A stretch of DNA of 15,089 nucleotides from Candidatus Alcyoniella australis (lineage in GTDB: Bacteria; Lernaellota; Lernaellaia; JAVCCG01; Alcyoniellaceae), in NCBI GenBank assembly GCA_030765605.1, contig JAVCCG010000125.1, positions 1-15,089 on the forward strand. The letters are read 5' to 3'. Under the pieces are notes generated by a model. It made no database searches. It was given only the letters and a program-made list of their open reading frames with translations, and was not told where the DNA came from. This document shows, one piece after another, positions 1-14,777 of this stretch. Within the stretch, counting starts at the first letter, position 1, and the number at the start of each line of letters is the position of its first letter. A program made the translations under genes and the position numbers.

Positions 1-456
1 GATTGGAACACCGTGAAGCTCAGCGGCACGCCCTACATCACGGCCCAAGCCTACGGCCACGACGAGAGCCTGGCGATCGTGCTAATCAACAAGGACCCGC
101 TGAACAACACCGAGGCTGCGATATCGCTCTTAGGCGTCCCGGACGACGGCCAGACGCGGATGATCTACGCCGGCGAGATCACCGGCGACACCATCGACGC
201 GCACAACGAACGCTACCCCGAGCTGCCCAACGCCGACCCGGCCGTAATCTACGATGGCCTGCATTATATCGGCGACCTGGAGGGCTCGGACCTGACATAT
301 CTGCTCAAGCCGCGATCGATCACCGGACTGTTGGTGACAACCAGCGCGCTGCCCGATGATGACGACGACGACGATGATGACGACGACGATGACGACGATG
401 ATTTCGATCAAGACAGCGGCGACGGAGACGATGGCTGCTGCGCCTGTTCCCTCTAG
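1..456 (+). CDS. C-terminal part of a secreted protein with poly-Asp tail (5' truncated by window edge)
   Basis: The frame is open from the first base and ends at TAG 454-456, so about 151 residues of a longer protein are visible. The part before the tail (phrases such as YITAQAYGHDESLAIVLINK and SITGLLVTTSALP) reads like the C-terminal beta-sandwich that follows the catalytic barrel in many glycoside hydrolases, where a strand with 'L.I.LINK' is common; this is a resemblance by eye only. It is followed by 16 consecutive Asp codons (355-402), FDQDSGDGDDG and a short Cys-rich end, CCACSL. Acidic linkers of this kind mark exported proteins in the same genome (compare the lipoprotein at 6608-7795). 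No transmembrane helix follows the cysteines in any frame, so it is not a complete MYXO-CTERM-like sorting signal. Function of the missing part is unknown. Confidence 0.75.
   Translation, partial: DWNTVKLSGTPYITAQAYGHDESLAIVLINKDPLNNTEAAISLLGVPDDGQTRMIYAGEITGDTIDAHNERYPELPNADPAVIYDGLHYIGDLEGSDLTYLLKPRSITGLLVTTSALPDDDDDDDDDDDDDDDDFDQDSGDGDDGCCACSL
355..402 (+). repeat. GAY trinucleotide tract encoding 16 Asp
   Basis: Sixteen successive GAT/GAC codons. The two codons are mixed irregularly, so the tract is selected or maintained at protein level rather than being a pure microsatellite. Confidence 0.9.
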
Positions 457-3866: not shown

Positions 3867-5147
3867 ATGAGTGACCTGCTCGAGCGTGCGGCAAAGGTAA
3901 TTGCTCCGACCCTGGGCATGGATACCGACTTGGTTGCGCTGTCCAGCGACGGGGTCGAGGTTCGTTGTGACAACGGCAAGACCTACTATGATTTCGCCAG
4001 TGGCACGGCGGTGCTCAACATCGGCCACGGCCCGGCCAAGGTCAAGCAGGCGGCCAAGCGTCAGATCGACCAGTTCATCCATTCGGGCTGCGTGTTCCAC
4101 TACGAGTCGCTGGTGCGGCTGGCAGAGCTGCTGGCCGAGGTCACGCCGCAGGGCATCGGCAAGTTCTTCTTCTCCAACTCCGGCGCGGAGGCGGTAGAGG
4201 GCTGCCTGAAGCTGGCGCGCTACGTCACCGGGCGACCGGGGATCGTCAGCTTCACCGGCGCGTTTCACGGCCGAACCCTGGGCGCGGCCAGCGTGACAAC
4301 CTCGTCGGTCAAGTACCGCACGCGCTACGGTCCGCTGCTGCCCGAGGTCTACCAGGTGCCGTTCCCCTACTGCTATCGCTGCCCCTACGGATTGCAGCGC
4401 GAAAGCTGCGGACTGCAGTGCTTCGAGGCGCTGCTGCAATTCCAAAAGCACGTGCTCGCGCCCTCCGAGACCGCGGCGTTCTTAATCGAGCCGCAGCAGG
4501 GGGAGGGCGGCTACGTGCCGTGCGACCCGGAGTTTATGACCCGACTGCGCGAACTGTGCGACGAGCAGCAGGTGCTGCTGATCTTCGACGAGGTGCAAAC
4601 CGGGTTCGGCCGCACCTGTAAATGGTTCTGCGCCGAGCACTACGGCGTGACCCCGGACGCGATGGCGATCGCCAAGGGCATCGCCGGCGGGTTCCCGCTC
4701 TCGGCCGTGGCCGCGCGGCCCGAGCTGATGGACCGCTGGTCGCGCGGTGCCCACGGCACAACCTTCGGCGGCAGCCCCGTGAGCTGCGCCGCGGGCGTGG
4801 CCTTGATCGAGACGATCCGCGAGCAGAATCTGCTGGAGCAGGGGATGAAAAAGGCCGAGCACGTGCGCCAACGCCTGGCGCAGATGCAGGCCGAGCTGCC
4901 GCTGATCGGCGATGTGCGCGGCTGGGGAATGATGATCGGCATCGAGCTGGTGCAGCCCGGCGGCAAGCAGCCCAACCCCGAGGCGCTGAACAAGGTGCTG
5001 GCCGACGCGCTGGAGCAAAACTTCGTGATGATCAGCTGCGGCCCGTCGGGCAACGTGATCCGCTACATCCCGCCGCTGGTGGCTCCACTGGAACTGATCG
5101 ATCGTTCACTGGACATCATCGAGCACAGCCTAAGGAAGCAAAGCTGA
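3867..5147 (+). CDS. Class-III PLP-dependent aminotransferase (4-aminobutyrate/acetylornithine type)
   Basis: A 426-residue cytosolic fold-type I enzyme, full length for the family. Visible motifs: SGAEA (about 105-109) and GAFHGRT (131-137) for the cofactor phosphate and ring, EPQQGEGGY (208-216), the pyridine-nitrogen aspartate in LLIFDEVQTGFGRT (Asp241), the Schiff-base lysine in MAIAKGIAGG (Lys270) and GTTFGG (297-302). These support transfer of an amino group from an omega-amino acid such as GABA, ornithine or a related diamine product to a 2-oxo acid; the substrate is not decided. An insert at 169-185 has four cysteines spaced C-x2-C-x8-C-x3-C, which looks like a small metal or disulfide knuckle and occurs in a subset of GabT-like enzymes. 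Start ATG follows GGGG with 6-7 nt spacing. The next gene begins 2 nt after the stop, so the two are surely cotranscribed. Confidence 0.92.
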   Translation: MSDLLERAAKVIAPTLGMDTDLVALSSDGVEVRCDNGKTYYDFASGTAVLNIGHGPAKVKQAAKRQIDQFIHSGCVFHYESLVRLAELLAEVTPQGIGKFFFSNSGAEAVEGCLKLARYVTGRPGIVSFTGAFHGRTLGAASVTTSSVKYRTRYGPLLPEVYQVPFPYCYRCPYGLQRESCGLQCFEALLQFQKHVLAPSETAAFLIEPQQGEGGYVPCDPEFMTRLRELCDEQQVLLIFDEVQTGFGRTCKWFCAEHYGVTPDAMAIAKGIAGGFPLSAVAARPELMDRWSRGAHGTTFGGSPVSCAAGVALIETIREQNLLEQGMKKAEHVRQRLAQMQAELPLIGDVRGWGMMIGIELVQPGGKQPNPEALNKVLADALEQNFVMISCGPSGNVIRYIPPLVAPLELIDRSLDIIEHSLRKQS

Positions 5148-5149
5148 GT

Positions 5150-6490
5150 ATGGAACGCATCCGCATTTTGATCGCTGGAGCCGGTGGCCGCGACTTTCAC
5201 AACTTCAACACGGTTTTTCGCGACAACGAGATATACGAGGTCGTGGCCTTTACCGCCACGCAGATCCCGGACATCCAGGACCGCACCTATCCGCCGCAGC
5301 TCGCGGGTCGGCTATACCCCGAGGGGATCGCGATTCACGACGAGTCGCAGCTCGAGCGGCTGATCGCCGAGCTGCACGTGGACCAGGTGATCTTCTCCTA
5401 CTCCGATGTGAGCCACGACTACGTGATGTCGTTGGGCAATCGCGTTATCGCGGCCGGCGCCGACTTCCGCGTGCTCAGCGCGCGCGCGACCATGCTGCGC
5501 TCGCAAAAGCCGATGATCACGGTCTGCGCCGTGCGCACCGGCTGCGGTAAAAGCCAGACCACGCGGCGGATCATCGAGCTGCTGCTCGAGGCGGGCAAGC
5601 GCGTGGTGGCAATCCGCCACCCGATGCCCTACGGCGATTTGGCGCGTCAACGGGTCCAGCGCTTCGCTAAAATGGCCGACTTCGACGAGCACCAGTGCAC
5701 GATCGAGGAGCGCGAGGAGTACGAGCCGCACATCCAACGCGGCAACGTGGTCTACGCCGGAGTGGACTACGGCGCGATCCTGGCCCAGGCCGAGGCCGAG
5801 GCCGACGTGATCGTCTGGGACGGCGGCAACAACGACCTGCCGTTCTACGTGCCCGACCTCGAGATCGTGGTCGCAGACCCACACCGCGTGGGGCACGAAC
5901 TGCACTACACGCCGGGCACGGCCAACCTGATCCGCGCCGACGTGGTGATCATCAACAAGGTCGATACCGCTAACCGCGCCGACGTCGAGCAGCTGCGCAA
6001 GAACATCGCCGCGGTCAATCCCACAGCCAAGGTGATCGAGGCGGCCAGCCCGCTGAGCGTGGTCTCCCAAGGCGGCGAGCAGCGCGCCGTCGAGCTGATC
6101 CAGGGCAAGCGCGTGCTGGTGGTCGAGGACGGCCCGACCCTGACCCACGGCGAGATGGGTTTCGGCGTGGGCGTTGTCGCCGCGCGCAAGTTCGGCGCGG
6201 CGCAGCTGGTCGATCCTCGGCCCTATGCCGTGGGGCGCGTCGCCGAGACCTTCGAGAAGTACACGCGCATCAAGGATCTGCTGCCCGCCGTGGGCTACGG
6301 CGACGAGCAGGTCGCGGACCTGCAGCGCACGATCAATGAAACGCCGTGCGATGTGGTGTTAATCGGCACGCCGATCGACCTGCGACGACTGGTCAGAATC
6401 GACAAGCCCACGGTGCGCGTGACCTACGAGCTACAGGTCCAGGGCAAGCCGGACCTCGGCGATCTGCTGCGCGAATACAAGCTGATCTAG
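5150..6490 (+). CDS. Cyclic 2,3-diphosphoglycerate synthetase-like P-loop protein
   Basis: A 446-residue protein. The N-terminal part (MERIRILIAGAGGRDFHNFN ... AFTATQIPDIQDRTYPP) is a Rossmann-like module; the second half is a P-loop NTPase with RTGCGKSQTTRRI (GKS at 133-135), WDGGNNDLPFYVPDLEI (from 223) and a guanine/adenine-type NKVD (269-272). This whole arrangement is that of the family named after the archaeal enzyme that makes cyclic 2,3-diphosphoglycerate from 2,3-diphosphoglycerate and ATP. Bacterial members are widespread but their reaction has not been settled to my knowledge, so the enzyme name should be read as a family label. The start at ATG 5150 is 2 nt after the aminotransferase stop; AAGGA lies 13 nt upstream, a long spacing that suggests translational coupling. 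Coupling to an aminotransferase hints at amino-acid metabolism rather than thermoprotection. Confidence 0.88.
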   Translation: MERIRILIAGAGGRDFHNFNTVFRDNEIYEVVAFTATQIPDIQDRTYPPQLAGRLYPEGIAIHDESQLERLIAELHVDQVIFSYSDVSHDYVMSLGNRVIAAGADFRVLSARATMLRSQKPMITVCAVRTGCGKSQTTRRIIELLLEAGKRVVAIRHPMPYGDLARQRVQRFAKMADFDEHQCTIEEREEYEPHIQRGNVVYAGVDYGAILAQAEAEADVIVWDGGNNDLPFYVPDLEIVVADPHRVGHELHYTPGTANLIRADVVIINKVDTANRADVEQLRKNIAAVNPTAKVIEAASPLSVVSQGGEQRAVELIQGKRVLVVEDGPTLTHGEMGFGVGVVAARKFGAAQLVDPRPYAVGRVAETFEKYTRIKDLLPAVGYGDEQVADLQRTINETPCDVVLIGTPIDLRRLVRIDKPTVRVTYELQVQGKPDLGDLLREYKLI

Positions 6491-6618
6491 GCACCTTTGA
6501 GGTGCCCGCAATGTTCGCGTAGTACGCCGGTCGTAATGCTATGACCCATGTCGCGGAGATCATCGTAGAGCAACGTGCCTGGTCCGCTCGCGTGCCATGC
6601 GGGCACCTCAAAGGTGCT
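6490..6618. repeat. Pair of inverted palindromic units between convergent genes (REPIN/BIME-like)
   Basis: GCACCTTTGAGGTGCCCGCA (6491-6510) and its exact reverse complement TGCGGGCACCTCAAAGGTGC (6598-6617) face each other across 87 nt. Each arm is itself a palindrome (GGCACCT-TTG-AGGTGCC in the left arm), so two hairpins or one long stem-loop can form. The left arm begins at the stop of the rightward gene and the right arm contains the TGA of the leftward lipoprotein gene (6608-6610). There is no T-tract, so simple rho-independent termination is not indicated, although blocking of convergent transcripts is plausible. The architecture equals a REP doublet or a tiny MITE. Confidence 0.7.
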
Positions 6619-7795
6619 CGCCGTTGAAGTAGGCGTACCACAGGCCGCTTGGGGTGTTGTACGACACGCGGGCATTGCTCTGTGTATCGAGCACGAACGA
6701 GCATTGCTGCACGTCGCCGCCGTCGTAGATCGTCGAAATACGCCACACGCCTTCGTCGTAAAAGGCGTACATCAGGTTTCCCGCGTCAATGAAAACCACG
6801 TGCGGCTTGTCGCAGCACACGTCGAGCTCGATGCCGCACGGTGCGCCGTCGGCCTCGACGATTATGCTTTGGACCCAGTCGCCCGAGGCATTGGTGGCGT
6901 AGCGCAGTTCGGCCGCCTTGCCCGATGTGGAGTAGACCACGTGGGCCTTGCCGCCCGAATCGAAACCGAGCTGCGGCTTGCCCTCGTCCGTTGAGATCTC
7001 GGAGCTGTTCCAGGTCGAGCCGTCGTTGTACAGGTAGTCCAGGCCGCTCATGATGTAGGAATAGACGATGCCCGGGCGACCCGCGCCGGTCAAGGCCAGG
7101 TCGAACTCCGGGGTGGATACGCCGACGACCAGCTGTCCGCCGGACCACGGGCCCGAGTCGTTGCTCTTGAAGTAAATGCCGTAGTACCCGCCGCCGAGTT
7201 TGGTCGAGTAGGCGATCGACGCGTGCCCCGTGGTGTTGACCGCGATCTGCGTGTCCCAGCCCAACGAGTCGATCGAGGTATTGGCCCAGGTTCCCGAGGC
7301 GTCGGTGAGGTACCCGACCTCGCTGAAGTCCGTGGCCCCGTTGACCCAGGAGATGTGCAGCTGCTCGCCGTAGACGTCCAGCGAGGTGCCGAAGGCCGCG
7401 GCCACCGCGGTGATCTGTTCGTTGTCAAAGGCCTTGGCGCCGGGCCAGGCATGATGCAACGTGGCGTCGCTGTTGTGTAGATAGCTGATCTGGGGCTTGT
7501 CCGCGTAGTTAAGCGCGATGCAGTTCTCATCGCCGTAGTCTCCAGCCACGACCTGCTCGATCTCAAGGAATTCCTCGTCATCGTCGTCGTCGTCGATGTC
7601 GTCATCGTCGCCACTGTCATCATCGATGTCGTCGTCGTCATCGATATCATCGTCGTCGTTGTCGAGATCATCGTCGTCGTCGTCGAGGTCGTCGTCATCT
7701 TGGCTGTCGTCATCGTCGTTTGATGAACAGGCGGCGACCAAGGCGAACGCGACGATCAGCAAGATTATCAGGGCGCTCAAACGGTAGCCAAGCAT
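6608..7795 (-). CDS. Lipoprotein with poly-Asp linker and beta-propeller-like domain
   Basis: A 395-residue exported lipoprotein. The start ATG at 7795 is chosen because GGAGG (7804-7808) lies 9 nt upstream and because the frame then opens with a clean signal peptide, MLGYRLSALIILLIVAF, ending in a lipobox (LVAAC, Cys23). Residues 27-73 are almost pure Asp in blocks separated by L, I, SQ or SG. The remaining 320 residues consist of repeated beta motifs of the kind 'ISYLHNSDATL', 'LHISWVNGATDF', 'ASIAYSTKLGG', 'AHVVYSTSGKAAELRYATNA', 'PHVVFIDAGNLMYAFYD', about six to seven blades, typical of surface beta-propellers. No catalytic motif is visible. It is the last gene of the leftward series, 77 nt after the outer-membrane barrel gene, so it may share the transcript or have its own promoter. 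A surface-exposed binding or scaffold role is inferred; ligand unknown. Confidence 0.85.
   Translation of the reverse strand: MLGYRLSALIILLIVAFALVAACSSNDDDDSQDDDDLDDDDDDLDNDDDDIDDDDDIDDDSGDDDDIDDDDDDEEFLEIEQVVAGDYGDENCIALNYADKPQISYLHNSDATLHHAWPGAKAFDNEQITAVAAAFGTSLDVYGEQLHISWVNGATDFSEVGYLTDASGTWANTSIDSLGWDTQIAVNTTGHASIAYSTKLGGGYYGIYFKSNDSGPWSGGQLVVGVSTPEFDLALTGAGRPGIVYSYIMSGLDYLYNDGSTWNSSEISTDEGKPQLGFDSGGKAHVVYSTSGKAAELRYATNASGDWVQSIIVEADGAPCGIELDVCCDKPHVVFIDAGNLMYAFYDEGVWRISTIYDGGDVQQCSFVLDTQSNARVSYNTPSGLWYAYFNGEHL
7577..7717 (-). repeat. GAY trinucleotide tract encoding the poly-Asp linker
   Basis: About 47 codons, nearly all GAT or GAC, interrupted by single Leu, Ile, Asn and Ser-Gln/Ser-Gly codons. 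The tract is a probable site of length variation between strains. Confidence 0.9.
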
Positions 7796-7872: not shown

Positions 7873-8715
7873 CTAGAACTCTTTGAACACGCCGATGCCG
7901 GCGGTCCATTTCTCATAGCCGGATTTGGGAGGATCACCAAGGTTGAGGTAGGCAGCCTGCCACTTCAGGCCCCAGGTACGGCCGATCCAGTGGCTGTGGC
8001 TCAGGTTGATCTCCCAGGTATCCTGGCGAACCTCCTGGCGGTCGGCCACGTTGGTCGCGGTGTAAGCCTGGGCTGCGAAGGTCGTGCCCAGGAAGATCCA
8101 GAACAAGCCCTCGGAACCAACGCCGAGGGTCACGCCGTGGCTCCAGGACTCGACCGCGCCGGGGTTGGATTCGTTACGCGTCAGCCGGTAGTCGGCAATG
8201 AAGTACGGCAGGTAGAGCGTGGGTCCGGCGGCCACGTACCAGTCGTGGTGGTCGTCCCAATACTGGATGTGTCCGGCCCCGAGGGTAAAGGTCAGCGGCA
8301 GTGATCCCAGGATGAAGGTGAAGTCGTGATCCACGCGCCACATCGGCGTGAACAGCGACTCGGTGCCCGTACCCAGGGCGGTGTAGGTCGAGAGGTAGCG
8401 GAACCAATTGACGTAGGCGCCGACCGTACCGGTGACCGCCTCGCCCTCGAGCTCGCGGGTGTGCATGCCCAGTTGGGCAAACGGCGTGATCCGCGGATGG
8501 ACCCGGAAATAGCCGGTGAGGTAGGCCGAGTACCAGTCGCCGTAGTCGTCGTTGGGCGTCAGGTGTTCCCAGACGAAGTCTGCGTCGCCGCGGTAACTCA
8601 ACCCCTCGCGCAGCTTGGCGCGTTCTTCGGCGGTGTCGGCGCAAAACGCCGGAGCGGCCACCAGCAGCAGGCAGGTCAAAATGCACAGCGCGGCAAGAGT
8701 AGTTCTACAAGCCAA
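7873..8715 (-). CDS. YaiO-family outer-membrane beta-barrel protein
   Basis: A 280-residue protein with a Sec signal peptide (hydrophobic core LAALCILTCLLLVAAPAF, cleavage near FCA-DT), then alternating amphipathic strands rich in Trp/Tyr: GDADFVWEHLTPNDDYGDWY, YLTGYFRVHPRITPFAQ, YVNWFRYLSTYTALGTG, WYVAAGPTLYLPYFIADYRL, ending in a terminal Phe (GIGVFKEF) as recognised by the BAM complex. The strand pattern and length fit the OMP_YaiO domain; the E. coli relative sits beside a family-2 glycosyltransferase and a deacetylase. The start is TTG at 8715, supported by GGGAG (8723-8727) 7 nt upstream; it overlaps the preceding gene by 11 nt. By context it is the likely outer-membrane exit or anchoring component for the polymer made by this operon; transport itself is inferred. 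Confidence 0.82.
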   Translation of the reverse strand: MACRTTLAALCILTCLLLVAAPAFCADTAEERAKLREGLSYRGDADFVWEHLTPNDDYGDWYSAYLTGYFRVHPRITPFAQLGMHTRELEGEAVTGTVGAYVNWFRYLSTYTALGTGTESLFTPMWRVDHDFTFILGSLPLTFTLGAGHIQYWDDHHDWYVAAGPTLYLPYFIADYRLTRNESNPGAVESWSHGVTLGVGSEGLFWIFLGTTFAAQAYTATNVADRQEVRQDTWEINLSHSHWIGRTWGLKWQAAYLNLGDPPKSGYEKWTAGIGVFKEF

Positions 8716-9598
8716 CCATCTTCTCCCGGGTCATGTTAACCACGACCTGCTGCAGGATGTCCATCTGGTATCCCTGCTCCGGATCGTAGCGCGAGATAAA
8801 TTCGTTCCAGATATAGCGGGCGCGCTCCGAGTCGGGCTCGATCAATCCGTAGAGGATCACGAAGATCTGGGCGAAGGCGTCGGGGTAGAACGTGCCCCAG
8901 CTCGAACGGTGGATCGCGCCATCGTCAACCGCCCACAGATAGAGTTGGTCCTGCTGGACGTCGAGCTTGGTCTCGATACCATGCTTGAGGGCCAGCCGCG
9001 CCTGCTCGTAGTAGTCGGTGTCGGGCCAGCCCAGCGCCTCGCACAGCTTGATGAACGCCCCCAGCCCGCCGTAGTTCTCGCAGTTGTCCATCAGATATTT
9101 TTGGCTCTGCTCGGGGATGGCGCGCGCCAAGCCGTCGGATTCCTGCAGGTGCAATATCAGATAGGCGATGTCGAGAATCTTGAAGTGGTTGGCGTCGAGC
9201 AGCTCGCGCTTGCCCGTGCGCTGGTAGTACTCCCAGAGCAGAATCAAGAACGTGCCGGCGTAGGCGTCGACCGAGTCGTAGGTGTTGTTGGCCACCTGGT
9301 GGCCATTGCGGTAGATCGTGTAGTCGTAAATGCTGCCGGTCAGACCGTTCTTGTCCGGGTAGTTCAGGTTGTTGAAGTACCAGTCGATGTAGCTCTCGAC
9401 TCCCGAGTAATCCAGGTCGTGGCGCAGGGCGTAGATCGAGAACAGGTTGATCGCATAGGGCTCGACAAAGTAGACGTCGATGTCGATCGGGCGAAAGAAC
9501 TCGAGCACCCGCAACGCCGGGTGTCGTTGGCTCGTGCAACTGCTCAGGGCGGCCATCATCAATAGACTACAGACGGTTAAGGTTAAGAACCTTTTCAT
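8705..9598 (-). CDS. Six-hairpin (alpha/alpha)6-type glycosidase-like lipoprotein
   Basis: A 297-residue lipoprotein: MKRFLTLTVCSLLMMAALSSC with lipobox LSSC (Cys21). The mature part is rich in paired helices with motifs such as NTYDSVDAYAGTFLILLWEY, NCENYGGLGAFIKLCEALGW and SSWGTFYPDAFAQIFVILYG, which recall the (alpha/alpha)6 toroids of family-8/88-like glycosidases; Asp residues in DSVDAY, and the DDGAIHRSSW stretch, are candidates for catalysis. Family assignment is by fold pattern only. ATG at 9598 overlaps the preceding gene by 32 nt, and a poorer upstream start in the same frame would spoil the signal peptide. Expected role: periplasmic trimming or binding of the nascent polysaccharide, comparable in position to the hydrolases of the PNAG, Pel and cellulose operons. 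Confidence 0.72.
   Translation of the reverse strand: MKRFLTLTVCSLLMMAALSSCTSQRHPALRVLEFFRPIDIDVYFVEPYAINLFSIYALRHDLDYSGVESYIDWYFNNLNYPDKNGLTGSIYDYTIYRNGHQVANNTYDSVDAYAGTFLILLWEYYQRTGKRELLDANHFKILDIAYLILHLQESDGLARAIPEQSQKYLMDNCENYGGLGAFIKLCEALGWPDTDYYEQARLALKHGIETKLDVQQDQLYLWAVDDGAIHRSSWGTFYPDAFAQIFVILYGLIEPDSERARYIWNEFISRYDPEQGYQMDILQQVVVNMTREKMVGL
8723..8727 (-). promoter_or_regulatory. Ribosome site deciding the TTG start of the YaiO-family gene
   Basis: GGGAG on the minus strand inside the last codons of the upstream lipoprotein gene, 7 nt before TTG 8715-8713. No ATG or GTG in that frame offers an alternative before the signal peptide. Confidence 0.65.
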
Positions 9599-11423
9599 TG
9601 CCCTGGTCCTCGATGACGGCATAGTAGTATTGCTGGTCCTCTAGGATGCGCAGTCCGTCACCGACGGGCCTGGCGTATTGCCCTCGCGGTATCGCCACGG
9701 TGATCTGCTCGAGTCCCTCTGGATTGTTCAGTCGTACTTCCATCCCGCGGTCCGCGATGTTGAAGCTGTAATCGGTCTTGTAAAAGCGCAACAGAAAACG
9801 GGCAAACGTTGTGATCGACTTGACCTGAATCCGCCCCTCGTCGATCAGACCTTCGACCTCGGAGAAGAAGCTGACGAACTCCGGGCCGTACAGGTGGCCG
9901 TTGTATGTCTCGAACAGGTTGTAGGGGTGCGAGTAGATCAACCGGATGCAGCGGTTGCTCATCGTGAACTGCGCGGTCTGTTCAAGCCACTGCCTCACCT
10001 GAGATTCCGACGCGTCGTCTTTGATGCCGAACTCCTCGAGCGAGGCGCTGGTGCCCATCGGCATCACCGGAAAGGCCAGGACCCGCTCGCTTACCATCTT
10101 GCCGTCGTAGAAGCTGCGGTTGGGGGCCGAGCCGGTATCGCCGGTGTAGTAGTAGCCCACGTAGTTGTTGCGCTCGAGAATCTGGGTTGCCAGCGGCTGC
10201 GGGTGCACGCCCACGGGCGCGGAATATTCGACGATCGGGTAGTTGACGATGTTTTCCAGACACAGCGAATTGCGGTTGATGTTCTCCTCGATCTCCTTCT
10301 CGCCGAAAACACCGCGGTCGATGGAAAAGGCAAACCAGTTGTGTCCCCAACCGCCGTGGGAACCGATGGCCCCATGCTTGGCCAGCTCGCGCACGAACTC
10401 CAGCCCGCCGCCATCGGCCTCGAACCCCTGGGCGTCGCCCGGCTCGTCGAGGAAATCGCCGGCGGTGATGTGGATCGAGTACTCCATGTTGGGCCGCAGA
10501 TAGCCCTTTTCAAACAGGATCGGCATGTAATCCCACTCGATGTTGGAGTCCACGTGCCAGTTGATCACCAGCCCGCCGATGCCGTCGGGAACGCTGAGCA
10601 GGTGCGGAATGTGTACCTCGTCGAACAGGAAGGTGCGCAGCATTGCGCGCAACGGCAGGTCGTCGCCGTAGGCCTTGACGTAGCCCAGCGGCAGATTGAC
10701 CCACATCGCCAGCCCTTTACCGAAACGGTTGAGCGTCACGGCCGGACAACTGCGTCCATTGTCGAACACCGAGTCCGCCAGCACTTCGATGCCCTGGGAA
10801 AATGGGGTCAGCTTGGAGCTGATCGCATTATACATCAGCCGACCGTAACCGTATCCGACCATGTACTGTTCTTCGTCGACCTTGCCCAGCGGAATCTGGC
10901 AGCGATCGCGCCCCAGCTCTCCGCGGAAGCGGATGTGGGCCAGGCCGAAGGCATCGTCGCGCAACTCGTCGTAATTCAGATAATCGACCCCGGCAAGCCG
11001 CATGGTCAGCGGGTTGTTGCGGAAATCGCCGGAGTAGGTCCGGGTGCCGGCGTCGAAGGCCAAGAACACCGAGCCCCCGGCTTCTGTGTAGCGTTCAAGC
11101 CACGGCTCAAAGGCGTTGACCATGCTCTGGCACGCGCCGTCGGGAAAGATGATCGCCGGCACGTGTTCGGGCAGCTCGACCGGGTTGAGGCTGAGCAGCA
11201 TATTCAATTCGAGGCGTTCGAACGGCACGCCCTCCTCGAGCAACACGCTGGAATAAGCATCGAGCACGTAGCCGTACTGTTCAACGCTCTTGGAGTTGTA
11301 GGCTAATACAACGCGTAGGTCGGCGCGATCGGAGATCTGGTTGATCTCCGTGATCGTGCGCATGCCCAGGATCACCACGGCCACGCAGGCGATAATGATC
11401 AGACTTATGAAGACTCTTCGCAT
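9567..11423 (-). CDS. Membrane-anchored CE4-like polysaccharide deacetylase with N-terminal GATase-like domain
   Basis: A 618-residue protein. Residues 4-21 form a signal anchor (FISLIIIACVAVVILGM). Residues about 35-280 look like a class-I amidotransferase/ThuA-type alpha-beta domain (VLAYNSKSVEQYGYVLDAYS, PAIIFPDGACQSMV, GGSVFLAFDAGTRTY, and GKGLAMWVNLPLGY near the end) probably without catalytic use. Residues about 283-560 follow the NodB-homology order: a metal/base Asp in LVINWHVDSN (Asp292), a His pair in GSHGGWGHNWF (His356, His361), YSAPVGVHPQP (about 400-410) and the late His in IRLIYSHP (His499). The His pair is spaced by four residues where CE4 enzymes usually have three, so it is a divergent member. 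A beta-rich tail closes the protein. Predicted role: N- or O-deacetylation of the exported polymer in the periplasm. ATG 11423 has AAGGGAA 7 nt upstream and overlaps the preceding gene by 19 nt. Confidence 0.78.
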   Translation of the reverse strand: MRRVFISLIIIACVAVVILGMRTITEINQISDRADLRVVLAYNSKSVEQYGYVLDAYSSVLLEEGVPFERLELNMLLSLNPVELPEHVPAIIFPDGACQSMVNAFEPWLERYTEAGGSVFLAFDAGTRTYSGDFRNNPLTMRLAGVDYLNYDELRDDAFGLAHIRFRGELGRDRCQIPLGKVDEEQYMVGYGYGRLMYNAISSKLTPFSQGIEVLADSVFDNGRSCPAVTLNRFGKGLAMWVNLPLGYVKAYGDDLPLRAMLRTFLFDEVHIPHLLSVPDGIGGLVINWHVDSNIEWDYMPILFEKGYLRPNMEYSIHITAGDFLDEPGDAQGFEADGGGLEFVRELAKHGAIGSHGGWGHNWFAFSIDRGVFGEKEIEENINRNSLCLENIVNYPIVEYSAPVGVHPQPLATQILERNNYVGYYYTGDTGSAPNRSFYDGKMVSERVLAFPVMPMGTSASLEEFGIKDDASESQVRQWLEQTAQFTMSNRCIRLIYSHPYNLFETYNGHLYGPEFVSFFSEVEGLIDEGRIQVKSITTFARFLLRFYKTDYSFNIADRGMEVRLNNPEGLEQITVAIPRGQYARPVGDGLRILEDQQYYYAVIEDQGNEKVLNLNRL

Positions 11424-12751
11424 CGGACTATTCCCTTACCCTCGGTGAGCACGTAGCCGTGCGCGGCCACGTTTTTGCCCAGGGTGATCGCTTTCTTGCC
11501 GATAACCGACTTGATCGTTCCCGCCGCGCCCATGCGCGCTCCCTCCTCGGCGACCACGGATTCTTGCGAGAACACGTGTCCGAGCACTTCAGCGCCCTGG
11601 CAGAGCTTGATCGGTCCTTCGGCAAATAGGTCGCCGAGCACCACCGTACCCTTGCCGACTTCGATAAAACCGTAAGCCCGCGCCGAACCGCGCATCATTA
11701 CCTTCTCGCCAAAAGCCAGGTCGCCGCGCACGATCAGGTCGTGGTCGATATCAGCCGCGGAGGCGATGGAGATATCGCCGTCGAGCACTGTGGCCACGTC
11801 CTTGATCGTCTTGATGTTCATTGGATCGATCCGCTCGCGCTGGGGAGATCGAGTCTCGAGGTGCGGCTCGCTGTTGTGGTAGTCCGGCGTTGTGATCTTG
11901 TAGCCGTAGAGCCTGCGGAAGACGATTTTGTCCCCCAGGTGGATCTCGTTGAGGCTCGAGCAGCTGATTCCTAAAACGCAGCCCTCGCCGATCTGGACCT
12001 GCTGCTCGCAATCGGCCCAGCGCGAGATTCGGCAGTTCGCGCCCAGCTCGAGCCGGCCGTCGCAGGCAATCGCCCGCAGCCGGCTCTCCGGACCGACCGT
12101 CGCGTCGCCCGTGACATAGATGTCCTTCTCGAAATTGATCTTCTCTTTGGCGACCAGATCGCCGGGCACGTACATCGCGTGCTCGATCTGCTCGCCCGCC
12201 GGAACGTGCTTGGAACGGCTGACCTCGACCAGCTCCTCCTTGGACATGCGGACCTTTTGCATGCCCTCTTCGTTGATCCGCTCGCCCAGCGCTTTGACGA
12301 AAATCCGGCGCGCCGATTTGCCAAGGTAGCGCGGATCCTTGCTGTAGCTCATCTTGACCGGCAGCGGGTACTCGTCGCGCGGATTGAGCACCTCGATCAT
12401 ACCCGAGATAAAGGGCAGGATCGTCATCAGCGAAAATACCAAAATCACCAGCAGCGGATAGTACGGTCGGCGCAACGAGGGGTCGACCGATCGATCGACG
12501 AAGCCCTCGATCTCGACCTGTTCGGTCTGTTCGGTCGGCTCCAGCGGCTCGCCGAGCATATCGGTCTGGTCGGATGCCGGTTCCGGCAGAGGCTCGGCCG
12601 TTGCCTCGGGTTGCGCCGTGGGCTGAGCCGCAACGGATTCGGCGGTCGGCTGCGGCTCCGGGGCCTGGCCCTCCTGGGCCCAGGCCGCACAGCACAGCGC
12701 GATGCTCAGCGCCAGCGCCAGCACCAGCAACAGTGCGCCGGATCGGCTCAC
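11405..12751 (-). CDS. Membrane-anchored bactofilin-like (polymer-forming) beta-helix protein
   Basis: A 448-residue protein. Order: Sec-type signal (SGALLLVLALALSIALCC, possible cleavage at AWA-QE near 25), a Pro/Glu/Thr/Ala-rich spacer (27-90), one transmembrane helix (about 96-118, YPLLVILVFSLMTILPFISG), a basic-containing juxtamembrane part and, from about 185, a long right-handed beta-helix with the repeating hydrophobic/turn pattern of bactofilins: YVPGDLVAKEKINFEKDIYV, GDATVGPESRLRAIACDGRL, DHDLIVRGDLAFGEKVMM, GTVVLGDLFAEGPIKLCQGA, IKSVIGKKAITLGKNVAA. If the signal is cleaved, the beta-helix faces the cytoplasm, as in normal bactofilins. The start GTG at 12751 is preferred over a GTG at 12790 because it has AAAGGTGG 7 nt upstream and overlaps the synthase stop in a GTGA of 4 nt, a strong sign of translational coupling. 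Suggested role: scaffold that organises or clusters the synthase complex. Confidence 0.75.
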   Translation of the reverse strand: MSRSGALLLVLALALSIALCCAAWAQEGQAPEPQPTAESVAAQPTAQPEATAEPLPEPASDQTDMLGEPLEPTEQTEQVEIEGFVDRSVDPSLRRPYYPLLVILVFSLMTILPFISGMIEVLNPRDEYPLPVKMSYSKDPRYLGKSARRIFVKALGERINEEGMQKVRMSKEELVEVSRSKHVPAGEQIEHAMYVPGDLVAKEKINFEKDIYVTGDATVGPESRLRAIACDGRLELGANCRISRWADCEQQVQIGEGCVLGISCSSLNEIHLGDKIVFRRLYGYKITTPDYHNSEPHLETRSPQRERIDPMNIKTIKDVATVLDGDISIASAADIDHDLIVRGDLAFGEKVMMRGSARAYGFIEVGKGTVVLGDLFAEGPIKLCQGAEVLGHVFSQESVVAEEGARMGAAGTIKSVIGKKAITLGKNVAAHGYVLTEGKGIVRCEESS

Positions 12752-14007
12752 GACTCGTCCACCTTTCTGAAACGCTTGGTCTTGGTCCACTCGGCCTCAC
12801 GGCCGCGCAAGCGGTCGCCCAGCGCTTCGAAAAATCCTACCGTCGTATTCCAGATGTTGAGCAGGAAATAGAACAGCAGGAACGGCAGCAGCCGGATGCG
12901 GTAAGTCACGCCGTCGAGCAGCGAGGCCGTGCCGATCTGGTAGAACGGCGCGAAATTGCCGAAGGTGTTGTAGCCGGCCACGAACAGAAAGACGATCAGG
13001 CTCTCGAGGATCTGCATCTCGCCTAGGAAGAACAACGTCACCGAGTCCAGAATGCCGGTGAACAGGAACACCGGAATCGTGTAAATCGACAGCAGCATAA
13101 ATCCGTCGAACTTCTCCCCGCGCGACAGGTGCTTGGAGCGCAGTAGGCCACCCATGTGTTTGAACATCGCCTGGTTGTGTCCGCGCGACCAGCGTCTGAT
13201 CTGCCGCGCACGCACCTCCCAGGTCTGGGGCGCCTCTTCGTAGCACTCGACGCGGTTGGCGTAGACCACCTTCCAGCCGTTGATGAACAGGCGGAAGGTC
13301 AGGTCGGTGTCCTCGGCCAGCACCGAGGTGTCGAAGCCGCCGAAGGCCATGGCCAGCTCGCGTCTGAACCCGCCGACCGTGCCGCCGTATTGCGGGATCA
13401 GCCGCAGGTTATGCCGCGCCTGCTGGTCGACCTGATAGCCGCCGCTACGCTCTAGGTCGAGCAACCGGGTCAGCAGATTGACCTTGGTGTTGATCGGAAT
13501 CACGCGGCCCATCACCGCGCCGACCTCGGGATCCTTGAACGAGATCGCCAGATCGCGCAGCGTGCCTTTATTGGGCAGGTAATCGGCGTCAAAGACCAGC
13601 ATGATCTCGCCGGTGGCTATCGGCAGCACGTCGTTGAGCGCCGCGGGGTTGCCGCGCTTGCCCTCTTTGCGGTGCATCGGCTTGACGCATTTGTGCTTGG
13701 CCGCCAGCTCGTTGAGCACCTGCTCGGTGCGATCGGTCGAGTGGTCGTTGATCGGGATGATCTCCATCCGGTCGATCGGGTAGTCGCAGCGCAGCAGCGA
13801 GTTGATCACCTGGCGCGCCACGCGCTCCTCATCGTGCATCGGGATCAGCACCGAAATCCTGGGCAGATCCGAATCGACGATGTCCTGATAATACAGCCGC
13901 TGCTCGCCCATCACGCGGTTGACCGTAAAGGTATAGTGCCGCACCGCGTAGGCGACCATCAGGATCACCACCAGGATCATGTACAGCTTGAGGATCAGAA
14001 CAACCAA
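12748..14007 (-). CDS. Processive family-2 glycosyltransferase (polysaccharide synthase)
   Basis: A 419-residue inner-membrane synthase. An N-terminal helix (residues 2-21) is followed by a cytoplasmic GT-A domain with every mark of processive GT2 enzymes: ISVLIPMHDE (51-60), NDHSTD with Asp88, the metal-binding DAD in LVFDADY (140-142), the catalytic-base position in LAEDTDLTF (Asp233, xED) and QIRRW (269-273), the QxxRW signature. Three to four membrane helices follow (IYTIPVFLFTGILDSVTLFF, LESLIVFLFVAGYNTF, LLPFLLFYFLLNIW). This is the design of PgaC, hyaluronan and cellulose synthases, which polymerise from UDP-sugars and thread the chain through the membrane; the sugar cannot be read. 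Start: TTG 14007 has AGGAG 8 nt upstream; the TTG at 14013 would sit only 2 nt from it. It overlaps the preceding gene by 13 nt and the next by 4 nt. No PilZ domain is present. Confidence 0.92.
   Translation of the reverse strand: MVVLILKLYMILVVILMVAYAVRHYTFTVNRVMGEQRLYYQDIVDSDLPRISVLIPMHDEERVARQVINSLLRCDYPIDRMEIIPINDHSTDRTEQVLNELAAKHKCVKPMHRKEGKRGNPAALNDVLPIATGEIMLVFDADYLPNKGTLRDLAISFKDPEVGAVMGRVIPINTKVNLLTRLLDLERSGGYQVDQQARHNLRLIPQYGGTVGGFRRELAMAFGGFDTSVLAEDTDLTFRLFINGWKVVYANRVECYEEAPQTWEVRARQIRRWSRGHNQAMFKHMGGLLRSKHLSRGEKFDGFMLLSIYTIPVFLFTGILDSVTLFFLGEMQILESLIVFLFVAGYNTFGNFAPFYQIGTASLLDGVTYRIRLLPFLLFYFLLNIWNTTVGFFEALGDRLRGREAEWTKTKRFRKVDES
12759..12766 (-). promoter_or_regulatory. Ribosome site deciding the GTG start of the beta-helix gene
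   Basis: AAAGGTGG on the minus strand, 7 nt before GTG 12751-12749 and inside the final codons of the glycosyltransferase gene. Confidence 0.6.
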
Positions 14008-14777
14008 CGCCAAATCTCCTGATGACGCTGCAGCCTGTTCGCCATCACGCTGACGTAGATCGAGTAGATCCCGACCACGTAGACAAAGTCGAACAACGGT
14101 CCGAAGGTGAAGAACATCGCCGCCATGTAGAGCACGGAAGACTTGTACATCACATACAGGAACGCCGCGTAGCGCACCGCTCCGAAGGCGATGGAGTAGA
14201 TTACGGTTAGAACCACAATCGACAGTTTCTCAAGAATATGTGCCGGAAGCGGTGTCAGGGCGATCGCCAGAATCAGCGGAATCAACAGCCACATCCCGAG
14301 CTGGGTTCCCATATACAACGATGAGAACAGCACTATGTCGTAGGGGAACAGTTCCGGAATCAGCGTGAAAAAGGCCGAGGAGACCGTATTGATCAACGCG
14401 ACGAACACTACCCAAACCATCAGCGGCCGCGGGATGATCCGCAGCCTGGGCAGCAACGCCACCACTAAAACCGAGACGCCGAAGTTGATCAAGGCAAACT
14501 GGCGCGAGGGGTAAACCACGGCCATATCAAGCAGATAAACATCGCGAAACACGTATGGCAGAAACGGCCAGGTCTCGATCTGGGTGTAGACTCCGCAGCG
14601 CAGCAGGATCTCGCGAACCACCCCGACGAAAGAACGCATCAGACGGAAATAGAAGACCGCGATCACCAGGTCGATCGGGATAACCAAGATCAAAAATTTT
14701 AGCAGGTTGCTCAAGCGCGTGCGCGCCAGCTTCTTATAAGCGCGATGATAGAATATCTGGTCTTTCATCGGAGACAT
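13995..14777 (-). CDS. Multi-pass membrane protein, first gene of the polysaccharide operon
   Basis: A 260-residue protein with a basic N-terminus (HRAYKKLARTRLSNLLK) and about seven hydrophobic helices: FLILVIPIDLVIAVFYFRL, FALINFGVSVLVVALL, LMVWVVFVALINTVSSAFF, YMGTQLGMWLLIPLILAIAL, IVVLTVIYSIAFGAVRYAAF, LYMAAMFFTFGPLFDFVYVV and the segment after it. I do not recognise the family and see no catalytic motif. ATG at 14777 has GAGG about 8 nt upstream; an internal ATG at 14768 is less well placed. Since it leads the operon and overlaps the synthase gene by 13 nt, a role as a synthase partner in the inner membrane (as PgaD, Alg44 or PelG have in other systems, without sequence similarity being claimed) is the simplest inference. 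Confidence 0.7.
   Translation of the reverse strand: MSPMKDQIFYHRAYKKLARTRLSNLLKFLILVIPIDLVIAVFYFRLMRSFVGVVREILLRCGVYTQIETWPFLPYVFRDVYLLDMAVVYPSRQFALINFGVSVLVVALLPRLRIIPRPLMVWVVFVALINTVSSAFFTLIPELFPYDIVLFSSLYMGTQLGMWLLIPLILAIALTPLPAHILEKLSIVVLTVIYSIAFGAVRYAAFLYVMYKSSVLYMAAMFFTFGPLFDFVYVVGIYSIYVSVMANRLQRHQEIWRWLF
14016..14020 (-). promoter_or_regulatory. Ribosome site deciding the synthase start
   Basis: AGGAG on the minus strand. Its distance is 8 nt to the TTG at 14007 and 2 nt to the TTG at 14013, which favours the downstream TTG. Confidence 0.6.

Follow-up and report, generated by a model that had tools for sequence, protein, structure and literature searches.

The window, that is the whole stretch of DNA analysed, covers one entire contig (15,089 bp; genome size 4.29 Mb), so no statement is possible past the contig end; only seven genomes of the organism's phylum were in the searched set. 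Six open reading frames are found between positions 7873 and 14777, all on the minus strand, as the initial annotation had read them. Neighbouring frames overlap by 19, 43, 19, 56 and 11 nt, and such overlaps of 11-56 nt between each of the six genes and the next suggest a single translationally coupled operon. Promoter and terminator scans gave counts close to those of shuffles. The features of the cassette are the following.

13995..14777, minus strand: MEM, polytopic membrane partner of 260 aa with about six predicted TM helices; first gene of the operon, identified by its position upstream of the synthase
12748..14013, minus strand: GT2, processive family-2 glycosyltransferase / polysaccharide synthase of 421 aa, TTG start (PF13641, motifs, tree)
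13590-13582, 13314-13309 and 13203-13189, minus strand: GT2 motifs DAD, ED and QIRRW
11405..12790, minus strand: BAC, predicted membrane-anchored beta-solenoid of 461 aa (AlphaFold2 model, structural overlay, PF04519 at 21.8 bits)
9567..11423, minus strand: DAC, CE4/NodB-like polysaccharide deacetylase candidate of 618 aa with an N-terminal TM anchor (PF01522 matches of relatives, conserved residues)
10574-9912, minus strand: NodB-like region of DAC (about residues 284-504); the N-terminal region is GATase-like
8705..9622, minus strand: P5, lipoprotein (lipobox LSSC) of 305 aa with a predicted (alpha/alpha)6-barrel fold of glycosidase/phosphorylase type (AlphaFold2)
7873..8715, minus strand: YaiO-family outer-membrane beta-barrel, presumed export pore, 280 aa, TTG start (TIGR04390, PF19413)

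Scans of profile libraries returned named families above curated cut-offs for only two of the six window proteins, GT2 (PF13641) and the YaiO barrel (TIGR04390), and none for the other four. Since the bactofilin, CE4 and glycosidase labels were below cut-off or absent in the window, they were tested through relatives and structures. GT2 scores 99.5 bits against PF13641 (cut-off 27) and contains three predicted TM helices. The DAD, xED and QxxRW motifs reported earlier for this synthase are present (residues 142-144, ED at 234-235, and 271-275) and invariant in 26 relatives, so that the protein meets the criteria for a processive GT2 synthase, namely DxD, ED and QxxRW together with TM helices. 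No Pfam or NCBIfam match was obtained for MEM in any of 21 family members, and PDB sequence searches gave no convincing match for MEM, DAC or P5.

The distribution of the cassette was surveyed in one scan of 84,980 species anchored on the deacetylase-like protein DAC, which returned 34 loci from at least 10 phyla. These loci belong to Negativicutes (Sporomusa malonica and others), Nitrospirota, Elusimicrobia, Aquificota, Zixibacteria, Acidobacteria, Aminicenantes, Firestonebacteria, Cloacimonadota, Campylobacterota (Sulfurovum) and Eremiobacterota, plus a doubtful Dictyoglomus. Sporomusa malonica DSM 5090 is a cultured carrier, and no DAC relative was found in viral contigs. Using profiles of the six families, we found that almost all loci of sufficient length share MEM-GT2-BAC-DAC as their core order, with P5 and YaiO downstream of the core in most of them, except in Aquificota where YaiO comes first. 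The same gene order is found in G006, another genome of the window organism's class. Because the first scan was anchored on DAC, a second, unbiased search was performed with the synthase profile alone. The system GT2 reached 593-761 bits in 20 carrier genomes, against at most 172 bits for the next GT2, and carriers amounted to 13 of 136 Aquificota and 5 of 380 Negativicutes. In this retrieval, BAC lies directly after GT2 in 20/20 loci having downstream sequence and MEM precedes GT2 in every locus with upstream sequence. The system synthases form their own clade: in a maximum-likelihood tree, 29 of them are set apart by a branch of support 95/93, a count that excludes the row SYS_L026, a mislabelled neighbouring non-system GT2 placed beside PgaC. 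The check proposed in the initial annotation, a search for the same gene order across genomes, thus found a recurrent cassette of nearly constant order, and the refutation it had named, that the beta-helix and YaiO genes would not be conserved next to the synthase, failed, as BAC adjoins the synthase in every locus that extends downstream of it and most loci include YaiO.

The patchy distribution among phyla implies horizontal transfer, which is an inference. Omp85 was detected in 16 of the 17 carriers tested, indicating that carriers are diderm, consistent with the need for an exit through the outer membrane. The Dictyoglomus carrier was discounted: it has no Omp85, carries the synthase twice on different contigs, and contains a GT2 clustering with an Aquificaceae bin from the same sample series. 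The absence of a TPR protein, claimed earlier, is correct for this contig but does not extend to the class, as a 616-aa TPR protein lies directly upstream of the cassette in G006 and heads the same operon. Profile libraries place the genes in no named system, and the other refutation that the initial annotation had named thus failed as well. Literature searches on YaiO, bactofilin and exopolysaccharide topics and on the gene names, with preprints and most subscription papers outside their scope, found no description of the system; YaiO, bactofilin, Sporomusa and Aquificae are all absent from the main text of PMC7112194, which surveys synthase-dependent operons. The system is real, conserved and apparently unnamed; it belongs to a known kind, and one of its constant members is unusual.

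Three products would act beyond the inner membrane. DAC of the window scores 12.1 bits against PF01522, below the Pfam gathering score of 23.1; among 29 DAC members, PF01522 is matched by 15 (E up to 0.01; best 2.9e-6) and PF08532 by 2. Residues H290, D292, H356, H361 and H499 are conserved at 90% or more, and D292, H356 and H361, compared with an Asp-His-His metal site, show a CE4-like order with atypical spacing. No alignment between DAC and E. coli PgaB was obtained with hhalign. The CE4-like deacetylase proposed earlier is therefore supported by its relatives but not by the score of the window protein, and DAC is best described as a candidate CE4-like deacetylase, predicted to be anchored in the inner membrane, whose N-deacetylase reaction is inferred without biochemistry. 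P5 matched no profile family in library scans. Its AlphaFold2 model (pLDDT 93.4) is an (alpha/alpha)6 barrel that aligns with Z of 18-22 over about 230-259 residues to many glycosidases and phosphorylases of this fold (22.4 for 9ju0, 21.4 for 7qsj). W81, S117, Y121, N180 and E182 are invariant, and D116, D119 and D248 are conserved at 90% or more. Judged from this model, the glycosidase-like lipoprotein of the initial annotation holds as an (alpha/alpha)6 glycosidase/phosphorylase fold, the best family being undecided and a hydrolase reaction only inferred. The YaiO-type barrel was recovered well above threshold (TIGR04390, 100 bits for a cut-off of 32; PF19413, 48.3 for 23.9). Four carriers lack any YaiO, so this part is replaceable; the operon of three of these four, in some Negativicutes, holds a protein with a coiled coil and another predicted barrel.

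A clue to the substrate comes from WecB, the UDP-GlcNAc 2-epimerase (PF02350). Clustering of the neighbours of the loci identified it as the only one recurrent across phyla and detected no c-di-GMP regulator, WecC dehydrogenase or TPR protein shared by the loci. WecB is encoded in 17/34 loci, 16 of these copies being co-directional beside the cassette (the copy of locus L015 scores 332 bits). A PF02350 protein is present in 25/25 carrier genomes tested, genomes without a linked copy having another one, and the sole copy lies at the operon in seven Aquificota. In this phylum, WecB accompanies 12 of 13 carriers and 16 of 123 non-carriers (Fisher p 7e-9, uncorrected for relatedness), the thirteenth carrier having a WecB fragment at a contig edge. 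The pattern known from NfrBA/NGR, in which WecB supplies UDP-ManNAc and is linked where it is the only copy, recurs at the gene level in several Aquificota. WecB is otherwise common in bacteria (11/14 control genomes), and it is unlinked in the window organism, whose two PF02350 copies are both on other contigs, and in its nearest carrier. Linkage and co-occurrence, often as a sole copy, suggest that the product is probably a ManNAc-based, periplasmically trimmed polymer, an identity that is inferred in the absence of biochemistry.

Another explanation could be that the polymer is PNAG-like (poly-GlcNAc) or of another kind, its backbone not being ManNAc, and that WecB serves to supply a side modification or to keep the UDP-GlcNAc pool in balance. 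The closest known synthase profile is indeed the PgaC/IcaA equivalog (TIGR03937, PgaC_IcaA), with 128 bits for the window GT2, and the system GT2 profile gives E. coli PgaC 169 bits, above YaiP (83) and NfrB (25); in addition, the loci of Sporomusaceae, Firestonebacteria and the window organism's own class contain no WecB. However, the equivalog cut-off of 422 bits is far from reached, the cassette has no homologue of PgaA, PgaB or PgaD, and WecB remains the sole recurrent neighbour and the only genomic copy in many carriers, so that a PNAG-like product appears unlikely without being ruled out. We give about the same low credit to the possibility that the genes serve a cell-attached envelope glycan or sheath (capsule, coat or S-layer-like) rather than a secreted matrix polymer. 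Bactofilins are often active in localised envelope remodelling, and no gene of any locus indicates the final place of the polymer; against this, an outer-membrane barrel and periplasmic trimming enzymes suit export, and no ligase or lipid-carrier gene is recurrent.

BAC is the member for which the window protein alone was least informative, with a PF04519 score below the Pfam gathering score of 27.9. The AlphaFold2 model contains a TM/signal segment (16-40), a disordered stretch (41-108), a TM helix (110-135) and a solenoid (176-455) whose pLDDT is mostly 96-98. The bactofilin-like part corresponds to the C-terminal half of the solenoid (337-451), which overlays Thermus bactofilin (6ria; Z 8.3, rmsd 1.7 over 89 residues) and BacA (2n3d; Z 8.5, rmsd 2.6 over 102 residues) in VIA-align comparisons of the predicted model. 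These overlays concern the C-terminal half only, with Z values modest in absolute terms, and Foldseek alone gave no significant match for the model, the bactofilin half being visible only with VIA. PF04519 is matched weakly by 16 of the 25 BAC members (E up to 0.01; best 1.4e-7). The structure prediction asked for in the initial annotation thus returned a beta-solenoid, and the transmembrane bactofilin-like beta-helix described there stands by its modelled fold and by the weak matches of relatives, though not by the window protein's own score. It is quite improbable that BAC is instead a left-handed hexapeptide acyltransferase modifying the polymer or its precursor: about half of the BAC members show weak LpxD, NeuD or GlmU matches and the E. 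coli acyltransferase gene yaiX sits between yaiP and yaiO, but the model fits LpxD at an rmsd of 11-13, as expected from opposite handedness, against 1.7-2.6 for bactofilins, BAC relatives share an invariant RW pair and two conserved glutamates and no invariant histidine, and yaiX fragments compare unconvincingly with the BAC profile. We retain for the C-terminal half the fold of a bactofilin beta-solenoid, as modelled, with any polymerisation hypothetical and a scaffold role inferred only. Most BAC relatives have a single N-terminal TM helix that no K/R precedes and that is followed by 5-10 K/R within 40 residues, and their solenoid should therefore be cytoplasmic; the two TM helices of the window BAC give the same parity, placing the solenoid inside again. 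The beta-helix scaffold claimed earlier is thus kept as a constant neighbour of the synthase and amended as to its side: charge and TM parity, the sole basis of this inference, would put it at the cytoplasmic face together with the synthase.

These elements can be assembled into a working mechanism. GT2 and MEM would polymerise a nucleotide-activated amino sugar, most likely UDP-ManNAc derived from WecB (unlinked here, adjacent in roughly half of the relatives), and push the chain through the inner membrane, while BAC, anchored in this membrane at its cytoplasmic face, would hold or cluster the synthase complexes. On the periplasmic side, membrane-anchored DAC may N-deacetylate the chain and the P5 lipoprotein may trim it, before a possible export through the YaiO barrel, or through the other barrel in some Negativicutes. 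That the parts form one trans-envelope complex and act in this order is inferred. Gene order and conservation, the GT2 and YaiO families and the WecB linkage and co-occurrence are observed computationally, as are the folds of BAC and P5 at the level of models; the below-cut-off CE4 assignment in the window, the unlinked WecB of the window organism and the YaiO-less carriers count against the proposal. Overall, we consider it rather likely that the cassette encodes a distinct synthase-dependent exopolysaccharide system of diderm bacteria operating as proposed, with no biochemistry or genetics available on any member. The more specific version, a pathway for partially de-N-acetylated poly-ManNAc whose synthase complexes are organised by an obligatory membrane-anchored bactofilin relative, is put forward only tentatively and could well prove wrong.

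Few synthase-dependent polysaccharide systems are known, namely those for cellulose, PNAG, Pel, alginate, hyaluronan and NGR. The cassette would be an addition to them with a fixed core, and its carriers span at least 10 phyla, among them thermophilic Aquificota, Sulfurovum-type Campylobacterota, candidate phyla and Negativicutes. As a bactofilin-type protein is a constant partner of the synthase, it becomes directly testable whether polymer secretion uses a cytoskeletal scaffold; if true, a polysaccharide secretion machine would have a cytoskeletal protein among its obligatory subunits. The ManNAc polymer predicted here represents a chemistry until now postulated for NGR.

Comparison with known systems reveals partial likenesses. 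The solenoid of bactofilins (BacA, Thermus bactofilin; PF04519) superposes on the C-terminal half of BAC, which differs from them by two solenoid segments, a TM anchor, the RW motif and its fixed place in a synthase operon. A cytoplasmic cytoskeletal structure beneath a polysaccharide synthase exists in Gluconacetobacter, the cortical belt, but its component is unknown, and it is proposed to align cellulose synthases into ribbons (PMC7811197) and has no genetic link to the cassette described here. The parallel with the E. coli yai genes drawn earlier holds in part: the yaiS-yaiP-yaiX-yaiO cluster shares a YaiO-family barrel and a GT2, with an acyltransferase gene between them, whereas YaiP is a distant GT2 (83 bits), YaiS is not matched by the deacetylase profile and yaiX is not convincingly related to BAC. 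For PNAG (pgaABCD), PgaC is the nearest named synthase to the system GT2, and both systems would have the chain processed in the periplasm by a deacetylase and a glycosidase-type protein, with export by an outer-membrane barrel. In contrast to PNAG, the cassette carries its deacetylase and glycosidase folds on separate, unrelated proteins, and the window contains neither PgaD nor a TPR-porin; PgaB does not match the deacetylase profile, and PgaA, PgaB and PgaD have no significant match to any of the six system profiles.

The closest logic is that of NfrB-NfrA-WecB (N4 glycan receptor, NGR), which also combines an inner-membrane GT2 synthase with an outer-membrane barrel. In E. coli NfrBA, a ManNAc polymer was argued from UDP-ManNAc logic and genetics, and, as for the cassette, WecB is linked to the synthase gene in species without another copy and a ManNAc product is postulated (PMC8669472, PMC8669469). 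The synthases are nevertheless not orthologous (NfrB scores 25 bits with the system profile, PgaC 169), NfrB carries a C-terminal MshEN c-di-GMP domain for which the window GT2 (421 aa), ending shortly after its TM helices, is too short, the NfrA TPR-barrel has no match to the YaiO profile, and the cassette has additional deacetylase-like, glycosidase-like and bactofilin-like genes. By analogy, the cassette probably follows the logic of E. coli NfrBA-WecB with non-orthologous parts.

Additional copies of DAC, the CE4-like deacetylase candidate, were found in carriers of the cassette:

L033 9692-11548; L097 17150-19003: second DAC copy, Acidaminococcales
L017 8112-11836; L022 3270-6994; L024 8124-11842; L025 8046-11764: tandem pair of complete DAC genes, Firestonebacteria

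In the second Acidaminococcales copy, which is accompanied by a copy of the glycosidase-fold lipoprotein of its own, SLGGMANNWF stands where SHGGWxHNWF is expected. Because most of its histidine and aspartate motifs are gone, this copy is probably, judged by sequence, a non-catalytic paralogue. In some Negativicutes, another protein seems to take the place of YaiO, for which no match was obtained in the genomes concerned:

L033 7814-9667; L097 15368-17125; L098 4784-6583: coiled-coil and predicted beta-barrel protein

The Dictyoglomus carrier (L039) is probably a mis-binned Aquificaceae contig. In G006, a genome of the window organism's class with the same cassette order, the GT2 and BAC region (L004 8661-9884 and 8375-8794) lacks the GT2 C-terminus and has only the C-terminal third of BAC; the remaining parts meet at a single point, VAGY then RGN, reflecting either an assembly error or genuine decay. 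Immediately 3' of YaiO, this genome encodes a protein without a Pfam match, possibly a polymer-modifying enzyme:

L004 3635-4672: 345-aa TM-anchored protein

Other genes of the window were also considered:

6608-7795 (-): lipoprotein whose linker is a long poly-aspartate run, encoded just past YaiO
3867-6490 (+): class-III aminotransferase, then an overlapping gene matching a cobW-like GTPase

The lipoprotein has no family match and lies outside the conserved cassette; the gene at 1-456 (+) bears the same kind of poly-aspartate tract at its C-terminus. The aminotransferase/cobW-like pair is unrelated to the cassette finding.

Further neighbours were observed in other genomes:

L024 13561-15708; L025 13474-15648: PAS-GGDEF protein after the cassette, two Firestonebacteria
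L026 3333-6870: second exopolysaccharide locus, directly upstream of the cassette

The former hints at c-di-GMP control; in the latter, a PgaC-like GT2 is accompanied by a TPR plus barrel protein.
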